A DNA stretch of 23,439 nucleotides from a virus, in IMG/VR virus record IMGVR_UViG_3300045921_000734, positions 1 to 23,439 of that record. One strand, 5' to 3'. The translations under genes were made by a program, and so were the position numbers. The number at the start of each line of letters is the position of its first letter. Position 1 is the first letter of the stretch. This document shows positions 2,615-19,211 of the stretch, piece after piece. Under the pieces are notes generated by a model. The model had not been told where the DNA came from, searched no databases, and saw only the letters and a program-made list of their open reading frames with translations.

Positions 2615-4576
2615 ATGCCAATCCGGTTAAAGCGGCTTAACTTGCGAAACTGGACCACGATCCGTGAAGCTGAACTTGACTTCCCAGAAAAAGGGCTCGT
2701 GCTGGTGGTGGGAAAAACTACCGGAAGCCACAAGCGCGAGAGCGTCGGCGCGGGCAAGACCGCGGTAGGAGAAGCGATCTCCAGGGCGCTGCTTGGGGTC
2801 GCGGGGCGCTTTGAGCTTACCGGGCACTACTGCCACGACGAGGTCAACCAAAACATGTACGTCAAGCTCGACGCTGACTGCGACGGCACGCCGCTCTGCG
2901 TCGAGCTCGGCTACAAGTGCCGCGAGCTCTCTAAGACGGGCGAGGGGTTAAAGTTTACCTACGGCAAGACTGAGATCTGCCGGGCGCGCGTCAGCGACAC
3001 CCGGGCTGAACTTTGCAAGCTAGTGGGAATTACCCCAGAACTAGCCGAGTGGACGGTCTTCCTTGACGGCCAAAAGTTAGACTTTAACCGCATGTCGCAA
3101 CGGTCAGCGGTCGAGCTTTTGATGACCGCGCTGCAACAGCCGCCGTGGTCGCAGTACCACGAGCGGTCTAAGCGCGCGCTGGCCAACTTCAAGCGCGACT
3201 GCGACCGCGCGCAGGTCACGCACGAGGAAGCCCAGCGCGCCATGCAGGCGCTGGAAGCCAATGTCAACTTGGCTAAAAAGGACTACGACGCCGCGCTCGC
3301 TAAGTTCAACAACCAGCAGCGCGACTTCGAGCTTAAGCTGGCAGAGGCCCAAAAGTTAGCGCTTGAGCTCAAGGCGCAGCTTAACGCCGCCGAGTTGCAA
3401 CGCCAAAAGCTCGAGCTTGAGGCCAGGCGCCTGGAAGAAGCGTCAGCTGAAGCCCGCCAGCAACTTGAAGCAGCGCAGCGCGCGCTTGAGCGAAAAGTAT
3501 TTCAAGCCAGGCACTTTCGCCAGCTCCGGGCGGCCAAGCTTAAGGAGTTGGCTGACAAGCTAAGGTCAACAGAGTCAGAGCTCTTAAAGCTGAAGACGCA
3601 GCCCCTCGTGTGCCCCAAGTGCGGCCGGCCGCTCGACCAACCGCACCGCGAGGCTGAACTTAACGAGACCGCGGCAAAGCTCAGCGAGCTTAACGCTGAC
3701 CTGGACAAGTTCAAGGCGCTGGCCGCTGAAGTCGAGCAAGATGAAAAACTTTACCAGCGCCAGCTTGCCGAGCTTGACCAGCGCCTAAAGGCACAAGGGG
3801 CGCAGGCGCAACTCCGCAAGCTCCACGCCGACCGGCAAAACTTAGACCTGTCAACCCGCGCGCTGCAGCGCAAACTTGACGCGCAAGCGCTGCTGGTCCA
3901 ACAGCTGAAGCAAGGTCCTGACCGCAGCGAGCTTGAGCGCAAGGCTGCCGTCCTAGCCGAGCGCCAGGCCGCGCTCGCCAGCGCCCAGGCGCGCGTCAAG
4001 GACACCGCCCAGGCGCTGGTCGAAGCCGGCGAGGCCGTCAAGGTTGTGGACTACTTGAACACGGCGTTCAGCCCGGTAGGCATCCCAAATTTGGTGCTCA
4101 CCACCTGCATCGCGCCGTTAAACCACGTCGCCAGGAAGCTCAGCAACCTGGTGTCAGATGGGTCGATCAAGGTCACCTACAAGACCAGCCGGACACTGGT
4201 CTCAGGCGAAGAGCGGCCTGACCTGGACATCGAGGTGGCCAACCAGACCGGCGCCAAGCGCCTCAAGGGAAGCTCAAAGGGCGAGACTGGCCAGATTAAC
4301 CTGCTGGTGGCTGAAACCCTTGCCGAGGTCGGCGGGGTAGCCGCGCGCGTCGCCTACCGCTGGTACGACGAGGTAGCCAACTCGCAAGACCCAGTGGTGC
4401 GCCAGTGCGTCTTCAGCTACTTGAAAGACCTGGCCAACAGCCTAAACATCTTAATCTTCCTAGTTGACCACCACCCGGAGGCCGCGCAGTACGCTGACCA
4501 CTTTTTGGTGGTCCAAAAGGTAGCTGAAAAGACGTCTACGGTCTTTTGGGCTAAAAACGCGCTTGAAGTTGGCTAA
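2615..4576 (+). CDS. SbcC/Rad50-like (phage gp46-type) recombination ATPase
   Basis: This 653-residue protein is the ATPase half of a nuclease complex that processes DNA ends for recombination and replication. It has an N-terminal nucleotide-binding lobe with P-loop VGAGKT at residues 44-49. It is preceded by the GKTTGSHKRES stretch where related phage proteins have a GKN-type sequence. Long charged coiled coils span about 185-470 and are broken by a zinc hook, Cys333-Pro-Lys-Cys336-Gly-Arg. The signature region SKGETGQ is at 554-560. Walker B ends in Asp585-Glu586, followed by LVDHH at 616-620. I chose the ATG at 2615 because residues after it match the family start (MPIRLKRLNLRNW). An earlier in-frame ATG at 2543 lies inside the divergent gene. 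The Mre11/gp47 nuclease partner is not in the window. Confidence 0.92.
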   Translation: MPIRLKRLNLRNWTTIREAELDFPEKGLVLVVGKTTGSHKRESVGAGKTAVGEAISRALLGVAGRFELTGHYCHDEVNQNMYVKLDADCDGTPLCVELGYKCRELSKTGEGLKFTYGKTEICRARVSDTRAELCKLVGITPELAEWTVFLDGQKLDFNRMSQRSAVELLMTALQQPPWSQYHERSKRALANFKRDCDRAQVTHEEAQRAMQALEANVNLAKKDYDAALAKFNNQQRDFELKLAEAQKLALELKAQLNAAELQRQKLELEARRLEEASAEARQQLEAAQRALERKVFQARHFRQLRAAKLKELADKLRSTESELLKLKTQPLVCPKCGRPLDQPHREAELNETAAKLSELNADLDKFKALAAEVEQDEKLYQRQLAELDQRLKAQGAQAQLRKLHADRQNLDLSTRALQRKLDAQALLVQQLKQGPDRSELERKAAVLAERQAALASAQARVKDTAQALVEAGEAVKVVDYLNTAFSPVGIPNLVLTTCIAPLNHVARKLSNLVSDGSIKVTYKTSRTLVSGEERPDLDIEVANQTGAKRLKGSSKGETGQINLLVAETLAEVGGVAARVAYRWYDEVANSQDPVVRQCVFSYLKDLANSLNILIFLVDHHPEAAQYADHFLVVQKVAEKTSTVFWAKNALEVG

Positions 4577-4754
4577 ACCCTGGCTTCTTAGCCGCCAACT
4601 TGTACTTTACCGGTGACTTGCGGGCTTTAGGCGCCAAGATCAGCTCGTTAATCCCGCGCAGCCAGCCGCAGTACACCTTGCGCGCCTCAGCCTCAAGCCC
4701 CTGCAGCTTCAGGGACTCTAAGAGTTCCTGCTGATATGCATTTAATTCGCGCAT
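4551..4754 (-). CDS. small hypothetical protein
   Basis: This 67-residue protein has an amphipathic first half (ELNAYQQELLESLKLQGLEAEARKVY) and a basic second half (APKARKSPVKYKLAAKK). I do not recognise a family. The ATG lies inside a perfect 30-bp palindrome, in the context GTTAACACATG. Its last 26 bases overlap the end of the convergent ATPase gene. It reads like a real protein rather than a shadow, because its helix is well formed and the region has no other gene. It could be the last gene of the minus-strand virion block, downstream of the gene at 4798-5622. Confidence 0.6.
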   Translation of the reverse strand: MRELNAYQQELLESLKLQGLEAEARKVYCGWLRGINELILAPKARKSPVKYKLAAKKPGFSQLQARF

Positions 4755-4777
4755 GTGTTAACGTTAACACATGCGCG
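4748..4777. promoter_or_regulatory. perfect 30-bp palindrome containing a start codon
   Basis: The sequence is a perfect inverted repeat with no spacer, centred between 4762 and 4763. The half site is CGCGCATGTGTTAAC. It contains two abutting GTTAAC hexamers. Both strands therefore read GTTAACACATGCGCG. On the minus strand this ATG starts the gene at 4551-4754. On the plus strand it opens only an 11-codon frame. No T-run follows the palindrome in either direction, so a protein-binding operator or a hairpin at the start codon is more likely than a terminator. Confidence 0.75.
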
Positions 4778-8024: not shown

Positions 8025-8243
8025 CTAGCGCTTCCTGCGGGGCAGCGGAAGGCCGTCAGTATACTGGCCGACGTCACGGTTTGCAAAGCCGCGCGCTGGC
8101 TGGTTTGTCAGCTCAGCAACCGCGTTAATGTACGCCTTGGCCTTCCAGCCAGGCCGCATGGCCTGGCGCGACGTCATGCGCGCGTAGCGCCGGGCAAACT
8201 TCCCAAGTTTAACTTTGCCTGACTTGACGTCATCGCGCATCAT
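8025..8243 (-). CDS. small basic hypothetical protein
   Basis: This is a 72-residue, strongly basic protein (VKSGKVKLGKFARRYARMTSRQ, ending PLPRRKR) with no known family. Its ATG overlaps the TGA of the sigma gene in an ATGA, and its TAG is two bases before the tape measure ATG, so the three genes are translationally linked. Genes in this position next to a tape measure gene are often tail assembly chaperones, but the composition does not show it. RNA or DNA binding is equally possible. Confidence 0.65.
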   Translation of the reverse strand: MMRDDVKSGKVKLGKFARRYARMTSRQAMRPGWKAKAYINAVAELTNQPARGFANRDVGQYTDGLPLPRRKR

Positions 8244-9136
8244 GCCTCGCTTGCCTCGCTTGTCTCGTTAGCCTCGCTAGCCTCGACTTCCTCGCTCTCA
8301 AGCAGCATGTTGACAAGCCGCGCGACCCGGCGCTGCTCGGCCAGCGACTCGCGCAGCGTGGCCCGCAACTTTTCCAGGGCATTTTGCACGATGCGGTACG
8401 CGCCCATCTTCGTAAGCCCGATCATCCGGCCGAGCTCGTCGTACGTCTTGCCGTTAGCCCACGCTGTCAAGAGTTGCTGCTCGCGCGGGCTTAACTTTTC
8501 AAGCTCGCTCTTGGCCCACGCGTAGCGCTGCTGGCGGTCGACATAGTCTGCCGGGCTTTCCTGGTCGCTCGGCAATTTCGCGTACAGGGTCTCGTCCTCG
8601 TCGTCATCCTCGCCGCTGCCCATCGGGGCGTCGAGCTCCACCTTAGGCATGTAGTGCGGGCTCCGCTTTCCCTGGTAGACATACGAGCCCGCGTACCACG
8701 CGATCTTGCCCAGGTGGTTGCGGATGGCTTGCGAGGCGTAACTTTCAAACTTGCCGTGCTCCGGCGAGTACTCACGGGCGGCCTTCAACAGCGCGATGAC
8801 AGCCTCCTGCTTCAAGTCTTCCACGTCAAGCTCGACATTTTTCTCCGCGAAGCGGTGCGCTATCCAGTAGGCCAGCTGCCCGTACTTTTCCAGCACCTCG
8901 TCCGCCGAGATCCCAAGCTCTTCAAGCAGCGCGCGCAAGCTTTCTTTCACCTCAGGCAACTTGTCGTGCTTGGTCTTGGCGAAGTCGTTGACCTTCTTAG
9001 GCGACAGGCGCGCGAGCTTGCGCACGGCAGGGCTGACCTCGCTGGGTTTAAGCTTGCCTTTTTGCACCGCCCTTGCCATGCCAAAAAGGCGCTGTTGCTT
9101 GACCGACTTTGCGCGTTCGAGTAAGTTGCTGCTCAT
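8240..9136 (-). CDS. RNA polymerase sigma factor (sigma-70 family)
   Basis: This 298-residue protein probably directs host RNA polymerase to phage promoters. Region 2 spans about 85-145, with DVEDLKQEAVIALLKAAREY and FESYASQAIRNHL as the core-binding and -10 recognition helices. Region 4 spans about 212-262 (LSPREQQLLTAWANG, then the helix-turn-helix YDELGRMIGLTKMGAYRIV). There is no obvious region 3. An acidic linker (SGEDDDEDE) joins the two. Residues 17-65 form an extra N-terminal domain (ARAVQKGKLKPSEVSPAVRK ... DFAKTKHDKLPEV) of a kind seen in small phage proteins. The tail is a Glu-Ala-Ser repeat. The gene lies just after the capsid terminator, with TTAGGAT before the ATG, so it may have its own promoter. 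Confidence 0.88.
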   Translation of the reverse strand: MSSNLLERAKSVKQQRLFGMARAVQKGKLKPSEVSPAVRKLARLSPKKVNDFAKTKHDKLPEVKESLRALLEELGISADEVLEKYGQLAYWIAHRFAEKNVELDVEDLKQEAVIALLKAAREYSPEHGKFESYASQAIRNHLGKIAWYAGSYVYQGKRSPHYMPKVELDAPMGSGEDDDEDETLYAKLPSDQESPADYVDRQQRYAWAKSELEKLSPREQQLLTAWANGKTYDELGRMIGLTKMGAYRIVQNALEKLRATLRESLAEQRRVARLVNMLLESEEVEASEANETSEASEA

Positions 9137-9152
9137 ATCCTAATTACAGTAC

Positions 9153-9186
9153 TAAAAATGCCGCCAGCGCGCGCTGGCGGCATTTT
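9153..9186 (-). terminator. strong intrinsic terminator after the capsid gene
   Basis: A 32-bp perfect inverted repeat (9155-9186) is centred at 9170/9171, with the GC stem GCCGCCAGCGC and its complement. In the minus direction it is followed by a run of five T. It lies about 40 bases after the capsid stop and just before the sigma gene. A T4 run on the other side could also make it work in the plus direction. It probably limits read-through from the highly expressed capsid gene. Confidence 0.85.
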
Positions 9187-16300: not shown

Positions 16301-16508
16301 GCTTAAAAGCGAGCTGCCAGTAGTGCACGAGATCGTCACCGGGGTGCTTAATAACATCCCTGAGGTCTTAAAGGCGACATTTGGCGACGACTACGACACC
16401 TCGTGGTGCCTGGTGCCGTTTTCAGGCGACGCGGAAGTCGGGCCTAACATGCTTGACACGCGCAAGGTCGGCGCCAACCCTGACTGGGACGAGCTGCTTT
16501 CAAGGTAA
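13398..16508 (+). CDS. DNA polymerase I family with N-terminal UDG family-4-like domain
   Basis: This 1036-residue protein replicates phage DNA. Residues of about 45-260 resemble family-4 uracil-DNA glycosylases, with Cys73-x-x-Cys76, Cys146/147 and Cys162 as likely iron-sulfur ligands and GHP at 234-236. The glycosylase motif near 103-110 is DGVTPKED instead of GEGPG-type, so activity is doubtful. The 3'-5' exonuclease has Asp321/Glu323 (DTET), Asn389 and Asp393, and Tyr485/Asp489. The polymerase domain has RLSCKEPNLQQLP at 726-738 and motif A with Asp761 in DLSQIELR. The O-helix shows Arg829, Lys833, Phe837 and Tyr841. Motif C is VHDS with Asp962. All catalytic aspartates are present. The same architecture is known from the phage SPO1 polymerase. 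Confidence 0.95.
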   Translation: MTAVKLQAARKSTAVFQDLAGNPLSLKGIDKHYRDTLAFLHGVNTNGKVLVAFDPDNPLGDKTLTPGPDNPLCKKCGLYELGAASPFINFHGADDPLVTVVTDGVTPKEDQFNELAAGGTSAFLKKLFSELGFDITRVRWAPITRCCARKTQPNLATKGRWCRHFLVQDLLRHPPKVLMPVGSVALGLLSHKSNAQDWSGYELTYRGWPDDWLTTEDFARPRPHPADATVLTVGHPLFGKLPALRILMVPIQAPRLVYASQNQKVIKLWHAQVKHALDCAVRDAAPKAYDKPWWKLSTDPLEITRELSELIDHPGTLVAYDTETNGLKPWGETASIVFLMFRWLSPVTGKPKALGFPWNYPESPLYPHLDTLTPVVLNALYSSKVVGHNLTFDMLFTAANLKGADLNRLADSAAYDTWHMAYILKQATGTLGLEMIAYQWVPDLAGYEEDMSLLIELHRDTLHPDEGGHYANCPRDKWETHLKPYVMGDVEVAYQARQKLDDKLKQAASYKIPLAHPEHRGRFRWFEPPQRHWVYHHIVSPAARLLIKMMGRGMYVDTAELAKLEDLFPKKIQEVRDELRQVDPRIIAWCEQNEATKPGWELDLENKTQLKECLFHVLQLPVKRLTEVGQRLFGEKTDPSSIPREDAIKYAALDKYTLNVMSVDYPQVRPLQTYRKIFKEYSSYIRPMRNVFTLGLDKTERKASQHLARDGCVHASFLLTGTRGGRLSCKEPNLQQLPREGLIKRVYASRFKDRGCVYQGDLSQIELRVMAAACGDAAMVGAYHQGIDLHALTHSKIFRKPYEECVSEYVEWLQSKDKLSEAKKLKEERKVAKCTNFLTGYGGGAFGLQNSLAEQGIYLSLEECENILESFFDAYPTLRRYLSYYKSFILKHGCAVSIFGRVRIFEEVFSDNEKLKAKALRAGCNHLIQSTASDMMLICLGAIEACMRHENLESILVSTVHDSLVIDALKSELPVVHEIVTGVLNNIPEVLKATFGDDYDTSWCLVPFSGDAEVGPNMLDTRKVGANPDWDELLSR

Positions 16509-16545
16509 AGTTTACAAATTTAACAACCCCGGTAAACTCAGCTGT

Positions 16546-17673
16546 ATGTTGAGCAAAGGACCCATACCAAGTTACCCGGGAAACCGCCTGGTCGGTGTCG
16601 AGCTTGAGTTTGACGCTGGCGGCGCCAGATTTAACATGCCTGACCTGCCTAAAGGGTGGGAATGGCAATACGACGGCTCACTTGCCAACGGCAGGGAGTT
16701 TGTGCTTAAACAGCCACTGTGCTACGACAAGCTGGTTGAAAAGGTCAAAAGTTTAAGCCAAGCGCTGTCAAAGGCCAACGTCTTCTCCCGCAAGACCGGC
16801 GGCTTTCACGTGCACGTCCAGATTAACGACTACACCTTGGAAGACTGCGCGCGACTGGCGGAACTTTATCGCCTTTTTCAGCCAGCCATCAACAAGCTGG
16901 TGGCCAAAAGCCGCATAAGAAATTACTTTTGCCGCCCGTTTGTGGATGAAGTCACGCCGCGGAAACTTTCAAACATGTTTGAGCTCGGCATCAGCGCGCG
17001 CTGCCGCGGGGAAGCCCGGCGCAGCCGGAAGACGATGGTGATCAACTTTGCCATGTTCCGGTGCCGAAACCCTAGAAGCCGGACCGCGGAGTTCCGGCAA
17101 GGCAGCATCTCCAAGCGGACAGACTGCATCACCGGCTGGGTGGCCTTCACCCTGGCGCTCACCGACGCGGCGCGCAACCTGGACATCTTTAACGCGGCTA
17201 AAAAGTTACGCAAAACTGTCAGCGGGCTTAAGCAGCTCATGCGCCTGGTTGAAAAGGCGACCGGCGCGACCCGCCTGGCGGACTGGGTCGAGTGGCGCGC
17301 TAGCTACCTGGCCGCGAAACCCACGCCGGAGATGATTAACCTGGCAGTCGAGTCACTTAAGGGCAAAGACTGGCACGGCATCTTTTATGTCGCCAAAAAG
17401 TTGAACGTGCACAACGAGCTCGCGCGCAAGGTCTTGCAGGCAGCGCTCGACAAAAAGCTCCTGGAAGAGCGCCGCGGGCGGTTCAGGGCTAGCCAAGCCA
17501 GTCTCCCGGCGTCGAGTCCACATAGTCATCAAGCCACTGCACCAGCGCCACAGGGTCAACTTCAAGTTGACAGTACGCCAGCCAGCGCCGCGCGTGTTCA
17601 ACCATGTCCTGCTGCTGGCGCAGGCGCCGCCAGTTGCGGCGCCAGTCATGGCGCCCAACTTCATGTTCAATGA
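16546..17673 (+). CDS. putative amidoligase (glutamine-synthetase-fold family)
   Basis: This family has an ATP-dependent carboxylate-amine ligase fold and forms amide bonds on peptides or proteins. Residues 17-22 are GVELEF (first metal/ATP motif), Asp43 lies in DGS, and 84-91 are TGGFHVHV. INFAMFRC is at 166-173, and RTAEFRQG at 179-186 supplies Glu182 and Arg184. Residues of about 283-314 look like a winged helix (KKLNVHNELARKVLQAALDKKLLEERRGRFR). The last 60 residues are Ala/Pro/Ser low complexity and run antisense to a plausible minus-strand gene. A TAG one frame back at 17490 would end the protein at a natural point. I chose the ATG at 16546, 38 bases after the polymerase stop. An upstream frame starting at 16381 lies inside the polymerase gene. 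Confidence 0.8.
   Translation: MLSKGPIPSYPGNRLVGVELEFDAGGARFNMPDLPKGWEWQYDGSLANGREFVLKQPLCYDKLVEKVKSLSQALSKANVFSRKTGGFHVHVQINDYTLEDCARLAELYRLFQPAINKLVAKSRIRNYFCRPFVDEVTPRKLSNMFELGISARCRGEARRSRKTMVINFAMFRCRNPRSRTAEFRQGSISKRTDCITGWVAFTLALTDAARNLDIFNAAKKLRKTVSGLKQLMRLVEKATGATRLADWVEWRASYLAAKPTPEMINLAVESLKGKDWHGIFYVAKKLNVHNELARKVLQAALDKKLLEERRGRFRASQASLPASSPHSHQATAPAPQGQLQVDSTPASAARVQPCPAAGAGAASCGASHGAQLHVQ
17487..17494. other. GGCTAGCC palindrome at convergent gene ends (first copy)
   Basis: This 8-bp palindrome contains the TAG stop of the minus-strand gene starting at 17731. It also holds a plus-strand TAG that lies in the -1 frame of the amidoligase gene. A second copy lies at the next convergent junction. 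Confidence 0.5.
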
Positions 17674-17731
17674 AGTCGAACGCGACATCTTCAAGGTCAG
17701 GCACTAGTTGCTCGATTAACTTTCGAACCAC
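17489..17731 (-). CDS. small hypothetical protein, antisense to the amidoligase 3' end
   Basis: This 80-residue protein starts with GTG at 17729-17731. Its sequence looks like a real helical protein: RKLIEQLVPDLEDVAFDFIE, then DWRRNWRRLRQQQD, and a Trp/Asp-containing C-terminus (DPVALVQWLDDYVD). No family is recognised. It overlaps the amidoligase frame by 185 bases tail to tail. Its start lies 9 bases from the ATG of the divergent gene, inside one arm of a 17-bp inverted repeat. I trust it more than the low-complexity amidoligase tail opposite. GTG start and lack of a ribosome binding site leave doubt. Confidence 0.55.
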   Translation of the reverse strand: MVRKLIEQLVPDLEDVAFDFIEHEVGRHDWRRNWRRLRQQQDMVEHARRWLAYCQLEVDPVALVQWLDDYVDSTPGDWLG

Positions 17732-17745
17732 AACTTAACTATGAC
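17729..17745. repeat. left arm of a 17-bp inverted repeat
   Basis: CACAACTTAACTATGAC reads here on the plus strand and its exact reverse complement lies at 18433-18449. Bases flanking both arms differ. The arm contains the GTG of the minus gene at 17731 and the ATG of the plus gene at 17741, separated by 9 bases. Confidence 0.85.
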
Positions 17746-18304
17746 GCTGAAAGTTGGCGCTGTCTTTAAGATCATGTCAAAGCTGTACGTCTGCGTGCGG
17801 GTCAACGACTGCTCCGCGCGGGTCGTGCGGACATCAATGAGCGAAGTTAACGACGACACCAAGCTTTACGACGAGTTTGACCCCGCGGGCGTGCGCATCA
17901 GCGCAAACCCTGAAATTGACCAGCTGATCTGCGTCCTGCCAAGGCACCGCATCAAGTTTCGGGAGTCGGCCTACAAGCCGCCAAAACCGCGCGAAGTTGG
18001 CGTGGTTACCTTGCCGGTTGCCACCAAAAAGTCAGCGACCAAGCGGGCTGAGCCAGCTGAGCCAATTGCGCCAGCTGAGCCAACTGAGCCAGCTATTATT
18101 ACACCATTTGAGCCCGCTGCCATCTCGGTTGAGCTGGCTGAAGCCACAGCCGGCATTGAAAAGACCGTCGCGCAAGCCGCGCCGCCAGCGCCAAACCCGG
18201 TGTTAACGGTACTGGCGCGCGCCGCGGGCGAGCTGGCTAGCCTTCTCCGCAGCAACCTTCAAGTTTTACCACCGGGCGGTCTGCCGCGTAGCCAAAGTTC
18301 CTAA
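17741..18304 (+). CDS. hypothetical protein with Ala-Glu-Pro repeat linker
   Basis: This 187-residue protein is not recognised. Residues 1-75 look like a small globular domain (VGAVFKIMSKLYVCVRVNDC, then EIDQLICVLPRHRIKF). A low-complexity linker with AEPAEPIAPAEPTEPA follows, encoded by 9-bp GCTGAGCCA repeats. A final helix comes next (VLTVLARAAGELASLLRSNL). The ATG is in the context CACAACTTAACTATG, within the left repeat arm. The last 68 bases overlap the convergent Cys-rich gene. A plus-strand TAG one frame back lies at 18238. The gene is bracketed by the inverted repeat together with its convergent neighbour. Confidence 0.6.
   Translation: MTLKVGAVFKIMSKLYVCVRVNDCSARVVRTSMSEVNDDTKLYDEFDPAGVRISANPEIDQLICVLPRHRIKFRESAYKPPKPREVGVVTLPVATKKSATKRAEPAEPIAPAEPTEPAIITPFEPAAISVELAEATAGIEKTVAQAAPPAPNPVLTVLARAAGELASLLRSNLQVLPPGGLPRSQSS
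18047..18094. repeat. 9-bp GCTGAGCCA tandem repeats
   Basis: GCTGAGCCA or near variants (ATTGCGCCA, ACTGAGCCA) occur five times in a row, encoding the Ala-Glu-Pro linker of the plus-strand gene. The number of units is likely to vary between relatives. Confidence 0.7.
18235..18242. other. GGCTAGCC palindrome at convergent gene ends (second copy)
   Basis: Same 8-mer as at 17487. It holds the TAG stop of the minus-strand Cys-rich gene and a plus-strand TAG in the -1 frame of the gene starting at 17741. Confidence 0.5.
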
Positions 18305-18437
18305 GCGGCGGAAACTTCTTAAGCGGGCAGCCCTGCGGGCTCGTCACGTAGTGCCCGCGGGTGCACCCGCCAAGCCAGTAGCTGCACTGGCCGCAAATTT
18401 TCAGCCGGTCACTGATGGTTTTAGGGTCTACGGTCAT
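18237..18437 (-). CDS. small Cys-rich (putative zinc-binding) protein
   Basis: This 66-residue protein has Cys15-x-x-Cys18, Cys25, His29 and Cys37 in the stretch RLKICGQCSYWLGGCTRGHY and SPQGCPLKKF, plus a terminal Cys62-Cys63. The spacing suggests one small zinc site formed by the first four cysteines. Small proteins with this RLxICxxC...GCPxKKF pattern occur in phages without assigned function; this is recalled and not searched. The ATG has the same CACAACTTAACT leader as the gene at 17741 and lies in the right repeat arm. The 3' end overlaps the convergent gene by 68 bases. Confidence 0.7.
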   Translation of the reverse strand: MTVDPKTISDRLKICGQCSYWLGGCTRGHYVTSPQGCPLKKFPPLRNFGYAADRPVVKLEGCCGEG

Positions 18438-18449
18438 AGTTAAGTTGTG
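18433..18449. repeat. right arm of a 17-bp inverted repeat
   Basis: GTCATAGTTAAGTTGTG is the exact reverse complement of 17729-17745. Here the ATG end serves the minus-strand Cys-rich gene, and the GTG end serves the plus-strand gene at 18447, again 9 bases apart. Confidence 0.85.
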
Positions 18450-19211
18450 CCTACAGATGTCTGTAAAGCTGTCAACATCCTAGCTAACGCGCAGCTAGAG
18501 CTGTTCAGAAAGGTCAACCAACGCGTGGCCGCGCTCCGGCGGCTTGCCTACCTGCTGGAGCAGCTTGGCGACGTCACCTTTTACATGCCTAACCTTGACC
18601 AGCTGCTCCCGCTGGCCCAGATTAACTTAAACACCTACCGCCAGCTTCAACTTGCCTGCCCGTTTTTAAACTTGCCCAACCTTAGCGCGCTTGACCAGCT
18701 GAAGTCCGCGATCTCCAATGCCTACAGCCAGCTATACAGCAAACTTTACAACTCGCCGTACAACCGCCTGGGCGGCATCCAAAAGCGGCTAGACGACGCG
18801 CTGTCAGCGCTCACGCAACGCCGCTTGATGTGGGACTACTTAAACTGGCTGTCTTGCGCCCAATTTGCCGCGTGCGACTTTCCGCAAGGCATGGCCGCCG
18901 AGCTCACGCGGGCGCGAGAGCTATTTCAGCAGCAAGTTGAGGTCTTCAAGACGCCGCTTCAGCCAAACGCCAGCGAGTTAAAGCTTGAAGTCACCTACGA
19001 GGTGCAAGGCGACCCAGGCACCTCAATCACGTACGGCGGCCAAACTTACTACCCCGGCGACACCTTTACGGGCAAAAGCCAGTACCGCACCTTTAGCTCG
19101 GCTGGGGCGCAAGTTTTCACGCGCCCGTACGTGACCACAGACGCGCAGCGCCAAAAATTGGCCGCGGTCAAAGAGACACTCAACTGGCTGAAAAGCAATA
19201 CCTTATTCTAG
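18447..19211 (+). CDS. hypothetical protein, possibly virion-associated
   Basis: This 254-residue protein starts with GTG at 18447. The first 180 residues are helical and rich in Leu, Gln and Asn (NILANAQLELFRKVNQRVAA, then QINLNTYRQLQLACPFLNLP). The last part contains a beta motif (GTSITYGGQTYYPGDTFTG) like those in several phage structural proteins. No enzyme motif is present. It begins the plus-strand run that leads to the terminase, and the next small gene begins 6 bases after its stop. A head or neck role is inferred from position only. An ATG at 18457 is out of frame and stops at once. Confidence 0.65.
   Translation: MPTDVCKAVNILANAQLELFRKVNQRVAALRRLAYLLEQLGDVTFYMPNLDQLLPLAQINLNTYRQLQLACPFLNLPNLSALDQLKSAISNAYSQLYSKLYNSPYNRLGGIQKRLDDALSALTQRRLMWDYLNWLSCAQFAACDFPQGMAAELTRARELFQQQVEVFKTPLQPNASELKLEVTYEVQGDPGTSITYGGQTYYPGDTFTGKSQYRTFSSAGAQVFTRPYVTTDAQRQKLAAVKETLNWLKSNTLF

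Follow-up and report, generated by a model that had tools for sequence, protein, structure and literature searches.

A 17-bp inverted repeat in a tailed-phage genome fragment as a probable compact divergent start region used twice

Two small genes in the virus record IMGVR_UViG_3300045921_000734 are bracketed by a 17-bp sequence and its perfect inverted copy, which raises the question of whether the bracketed segment is invertible or mobile, or whether the two arms serve the genes that start within them. The window analyzed here is the complete IMG/VR record of 23,439 bp. Judged by the neighboring genes, it is a fragment of a tailed-phage genome: these genes encode a family A DNA polymerase, an amidoligase, a gp23-like capsid protein, an S77 head protease, an SbcC-like protein and a sigma factor, and a terminase-like protein in the window matched annotated terminases. 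The phage-encoded sigma factor (8240–9136, minus strand) contains Sigma70 regions 2 and 4. The stretch that separates the capsid gene from the sigma-factor gene contains a perfect inverted repeat of its own, AAAATGCCGCCAGCGCGCGCTGGCGGCATTTT (9155–9186), which resembles an intrinsic terminator and could act in both directions.

The sequence CACAACTTAACTATGAC occupies positions 17729–17745 on the plus strand and its exact inverted copy lies at 18433–18449 on the minus strand, confirming at both places the exact 17-bp inverted repeat of the original prediction. Identity between the arms ends sharply at 17 bp, and the flanks do not match. When up to three mismatches were allowed, no third site for the 17-mer was found in the window (0.04 sites expected in shuffled sequence), and the genome-wide search that the original prediction had proposed returned the two copies only. 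No exact copy was found elsewhere in IMG/VR by a search that may omit very near records. When the window was simulated 300 times with a second-order Markov model, the mean number of perfect 17-bp inverted repeats was 0.067 per sequence, and in no simulation (0/300) were the arms within 1 kb of each other; pure chance was rejected as the origin of the repeat on the basis of these simulations. The earlier statement that the match is far beyond chance hence holds against random sequence; a complete null would also have to allow for the box common to the start codons at which the two copies lie. It had also been reasoned that finding the same 17-mer at many starts would make it only a start-site motif, and this proved to be so for the 7-bp core, TAGTTAA, but not for the 17-mer as a whole.

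Both arms are divergent start junctions in which 9 bp lie between a GTG and an ATG, with the start codons 10 bp apart. The left arm reads CAC, the 9-bp gap AACTTAACT and ATG, where CAC is the GTG start of the outer left gene (17489–17731, minus strand) and ATG is the start of the inner left gene (17741–18304, plus strand). The right arm has its two starts 9 bp apart as well, namely the ATG of the inner right gene (18237–18437, minus strand) and the GTG of the outer right gene (18447–19211, plus strand). The two inner genes converge and overlap tail-to-tail by 68 bp, and the overall layout is as originally described, with an inner plus-strand gene, a convergent Cys-rich minus-strand gene and a GTG/ATG pair in each arm. 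The outer left (80 aa) and inner left (187 aa) products belong to no known family; the inner right product (66 aa) contains 6 Cys residues and weakly matched phrog_13558 (E 0.0095), and the outer right product (254 aa) has no clear family and weakly matched phrog_8709 (E 0.014). A usable function was obtained for none of the four from Pfam or PHROGs, Rfam yielded no match, and the structure models predicted for the inner left and inner right products had low confidence (pLDDT 43 and 47).

Within the arms, a TAGTTAA box was localized to 17735–17741 on the minus strand (left) and to 18437–18443 on the plus strand (right). Each box faces the outer GTG gene of its arm, with TAGTTA at –10 to –5 and 4 nt between this hexamer and the start. 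The box is present on the outer-gene strand only; the inner ATG overlaps it (CAT-AGTTA...), and neither inner ATG gene in the window has a TAGTTAA box on its own strand. At another start in the window, that of a small gene at 4551–4754 (minus strand), a 30-bp perfect palindrome, CGCGCATGTGTTAACGTTAACACATGCGCG, spans the start codon (4748–4777) and folds far better than its shuffles (z –4.8).

The box is not confined to the arms. In the window and the one relative that covers the region (67.8 kb in total, both strands), TAGTTAA was found at 8 sites, and 7 of these precede a start by at most 25 nt, in the same strand as the gene, as against 0.08 expected. Four of the 7 belong to the cassette in the two phages, so that the sites are not all independent, and the relative has the other three, at unrelated genes. 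Starts were assigned by inspecting open reading frames, not by a trained gene caller; of these, 13/63 had TA at –10 and 18/63 had it at –6, over a background of 2.6%, and TAnnTA occupied –10 to –5 in 11/63. ATG contexts throughout the two records carried TA at the same positions in 2.4% and 3.2% of cases. A TA-rich box at a fixed distance of ~10 bp before starts is hence enriched over background, and a Shine-Dalgarno signal is absent, such words preceding 8/62 starts as against 10.6% by chance. An unsupervised (EM) motif search of the upstream regions was too noisy and the clear result came from position and word counts; a scan with the generic sigma-70 consensus detected no promoter at either arm. 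Judged from these counts, the TAGTTA box is a common, strand-specific start-site signal of this phage group. The sigma factor encoded in the window is a candidate for its reader. A different start context, GTTCTAA(C/T)TACCATG, was observed at 2603–2617 of the window and near position 3377 of the relative (L004), on the minus strand; the two genes concerned, one SbcC-like (window) and one glycosyltransferase-like (relative), show no apparent relation.

The relative in question, IMGVR_UViG_3300032103_000228 (L003, 44,335 bp), was the only one found to cover the region, and its TerL is 77% identical to that of the window. This was the record retrieved from IMG/VR whether the query was TerL, the DNA polymerase, the left gene or the Cys-rich gene. 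The scan with the 254-aa gene produced no match although the relative encodes a homolog at 48% identity, hence negative scans of this kind carry little weight. A relative of the polymerase is also encoded on a 9-kb MAG contig that ends before the cassette; the remainder of this MAG yielded no TerL relative. The DNA polymerase reading frame is 1825 aa long in the relative (L003 443–5920) and 1036 aa in the window; extra stretches interrupt the match of the former, the pattern that inteins would give. Several amidoligase-family genes were noted in these phages (L004 16218–17393, L005 9003–10190 and window 16381–17673), in the relative beside a glutamine-amidotransferase-like gene. Some large phages encode tubulin/FtsZ-family proteins, and one such protein was recognized in the relative (L004 9273–10409; Pfam E 1e-9).

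The original prediction had suggested examining related phage genomes for presence, absence or flipping of the segment. In this one relative the segment is present with its orientation unchanged, and the four arm genes follow in identical order and orientation with identities of 61%, 43%, 65% and 48% from outer left to outer right. The inner left value (~43%) applies to the N-terminal 108 aa, and the window protein is without a 17-residue N-terminal stretch found in its homolog; in the inner right protein (65–66%) all 6 Cys residues are kept. The junctions themselves displayed the following features: (i) the left junction (L003 7543–7557) has kept the 9-bp gap and CTAACTATG, reads CAC-accctaact-ATG and retains CATAGTTA; (ii) the right junction has 42 bp between its starts, with two boxes back to back, one before each start, arranged as TTAACTACGC, a 14-bp spacer and GCGTAGTTAA (cTTAACTACGC ... 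GCGTAGTTAAc), and it is the only junction with the box on both strands, one per strand; (iii) a 33-bp deletion in this right junction would yield CATAGTTAACTTATG, which is near the window arm; and (iv) the left and right junctions are not repeats of each other. From this comparison, the 17-bp identity is not conserved in the relative, and the divergent start layout and the TAGTTA core are.

We consider it probable, from the arrangement of these sequences, that the arms represent one compact start region, composed of a –10-like TAGTTA box and overlapping, near-leaderless divergent starts, which is used twice. One strand of each 17-mer would provide TAGTTA and, after a gap of 4 nt, the outer gene's GTG; the other strand would provide an inner ATG that overlaps the box. 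The box would serve as a –10-like promoter element giving rise to leaderless or near-leaderless mRNAs, a reading prompted by its position, its strand specificity and the lack of a Shine-Dalgarno signal; the phage's own sigma factor may be what recognizes it. With both divergent junctions around a convergent gene pair using the same short element, an inverted repeat would arise and inversion would not be needed. Since the start codons are 10 bp apart, an arm could accommodate only one polymerase at a time, and the outer gene may be in competition with the inner one for this site. The original suggestion of a bidirectional control element used twice thereby gains support, the TAGTTAA core being located just upstream of starts in both phages.

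In our assessment the arms are a variant of two known kinds of element, TA-led starts and divergent promoters. Bacterial TA-like signals ~10–12 bp upstream of starts, with the consensus TANNNT, have been interpreted as promoters of leaderless genes (PMC3160421; PMC12340547), and in Deinococcus 6–7 bp separate the –10 motif from the start (PMC12340547). The phage arms resemble these in having a TA-rich box at a fixed short distance, Shine-Dalgarno words at chance level and a GTG start in use; they differ in that the box is TAGTTA(A), mostly 4 nt from the start (6–7 nt in a few cases), and in that the likeness is one of sequence, in a phage pair. The sixth base of the box is A and not T as in TANNNT, which speaks against the promoter reading, as do the negative sigma-70 scan of the arms and the lack of a box for the inner genes of the window on their own strand. 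The 4-nt gap is shorter than the 6–7 bp reported in Deinococcus, which makes a transcript beginning precisely at the start codon less certain. In bidirectional promoters, divergent transcription starts are 7–25 bp apart (PMC10268837), the –10 elements overlap symmetrically with starts most often 18 bp apart (PMC10268837; PMC12825309), and in strongly activated examples from E. coli transcription one way excludes the other (PMC12825309). The arms resemble them in that two divergent genes, here with start codons 10 bp apart, lie on one short common element, so that polymerase binding would be mutually exclusive. Unlike them, the window arms carry the box on one strand only, and the 10 bp measured here separates start codons, not transcription starts.

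The box alone is insufficient to account for arms that are identical at 17/17 positions. Comparison of the relative's left junction with its right junction collapsed by 33 bp gave agreement at ~11/17 positions (counted by eye); by this measure, box and start layout explain ~11/17 positions. Agreement within other non-orthologous start pairs of these phages is mostly 13/17 or lower, a few pairs reaching 14–15 (15 once). The remaining identity suggests either that one junction was recently copied from the other or that a longer site common to both is under selection. By the first of these, gene conversion or another copying process would have homogenized the junctions recently and the 17-bp identity would be mainly the trace of it, a reading compatible with a start region used twice. 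The contrast between ~11/17 in the relative and 17/17 in the window, and the lower agreement of other start pairs, are what copying would leave behind; yet the flanks do not match at all beyond the 17 identical positions, a common operator or a strong start consensus would look alike, and one relative cannot polarize the changes. On balance we give homogenization a real chance of having occurred, albeit somewhat short of even.

Selection for one shared operator would mean that the 17-mer is bound by a phage regulator that governs both divergent pairs together and whose site includes the box. The presence of two identical copies that each cover both starts fits such a role, as does an imperfect symmetry centered on TTAA, and the separate palindrome over the start at 4754 implies that start operators may exist in this genome. 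Against this, the 17-mer is not a clear dyad, its outer parts are not kept in the relative and no candidate regulator was tied to it, and an operator of this kind appears to us unlikely.

The original proposal of an invertible or exchangeable module is not supported. Phage DNA inversion systems of the Gin/Cin type consist of short inverted repeats around a segment, an invertase and alternative tail-fiber ends. The locus is similar in that a perfect repeat in opposite orientation brackets a two-gene segment, and from the sequence, flipping of 17746–18432 between the arms by a site-specific recombinase would preserve all four starts. Both genes would be left with equivalent start regions, however, so that nothing obvious would be switched. 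An inverted segment would have its Cys-rich gene at the left end and pointing to the right; this arrangement was not seen in the relative, where the orientation is that of the window and the arms differ such that they could not serve as paired recombination sites. Alternative tail-fiber ends are likewise missing here, and no recombinase or invertase was recognized in the window's proteins or in those of the relative that were scanned, though both records are fragments and the enzyme could come from elsewhere. Rare flipping is possible, the comparison being with one relative only; as an explanation of the repeat, inversion is highly improbable. Equally remote is a mobile or exchangeable cassette inserted as a unit with 17-bp terminal inverted repeats: two small genes between identical inverted ends do have this appearance, but they occupy the same place in the relative, amid neighbors ~50–77% identical, without such ends, the arms also contain the starts of the flanking genes and so belong to the flanks, no transposase was found, and the IMG/VR search gave no other exact copy of the 17-mer. 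Both readings were rejected on the conserved place and orientation of the segment and the differing arms of the relative.

A compact start region used twice can be carried further, to the proposal that TAGTTA-N4-(A/G)TG, read by the phage sigma factor, drives leaderless genes from starts 10 bp apart, in which case the 17-bp element would be promoter, both translation starts and polymerase-exclusion switch in one, used twice to coordinate four genes. We regard this full version as speculative and, taken as a whole, rather doubtful. More generally, the locus illustrates that in a compact phage genome a start signal used on both strands, and not DNA inversion, can be the source of a conspicuous inverted repeat. 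TAGTTA-N4-start without a Shine-Dalgarno sequence is a concrete start motif for an uncultured phage group, which aids the annotation of gene starts, and it hints at a host or a phage sigma factor that uses leaderless mRNAs.
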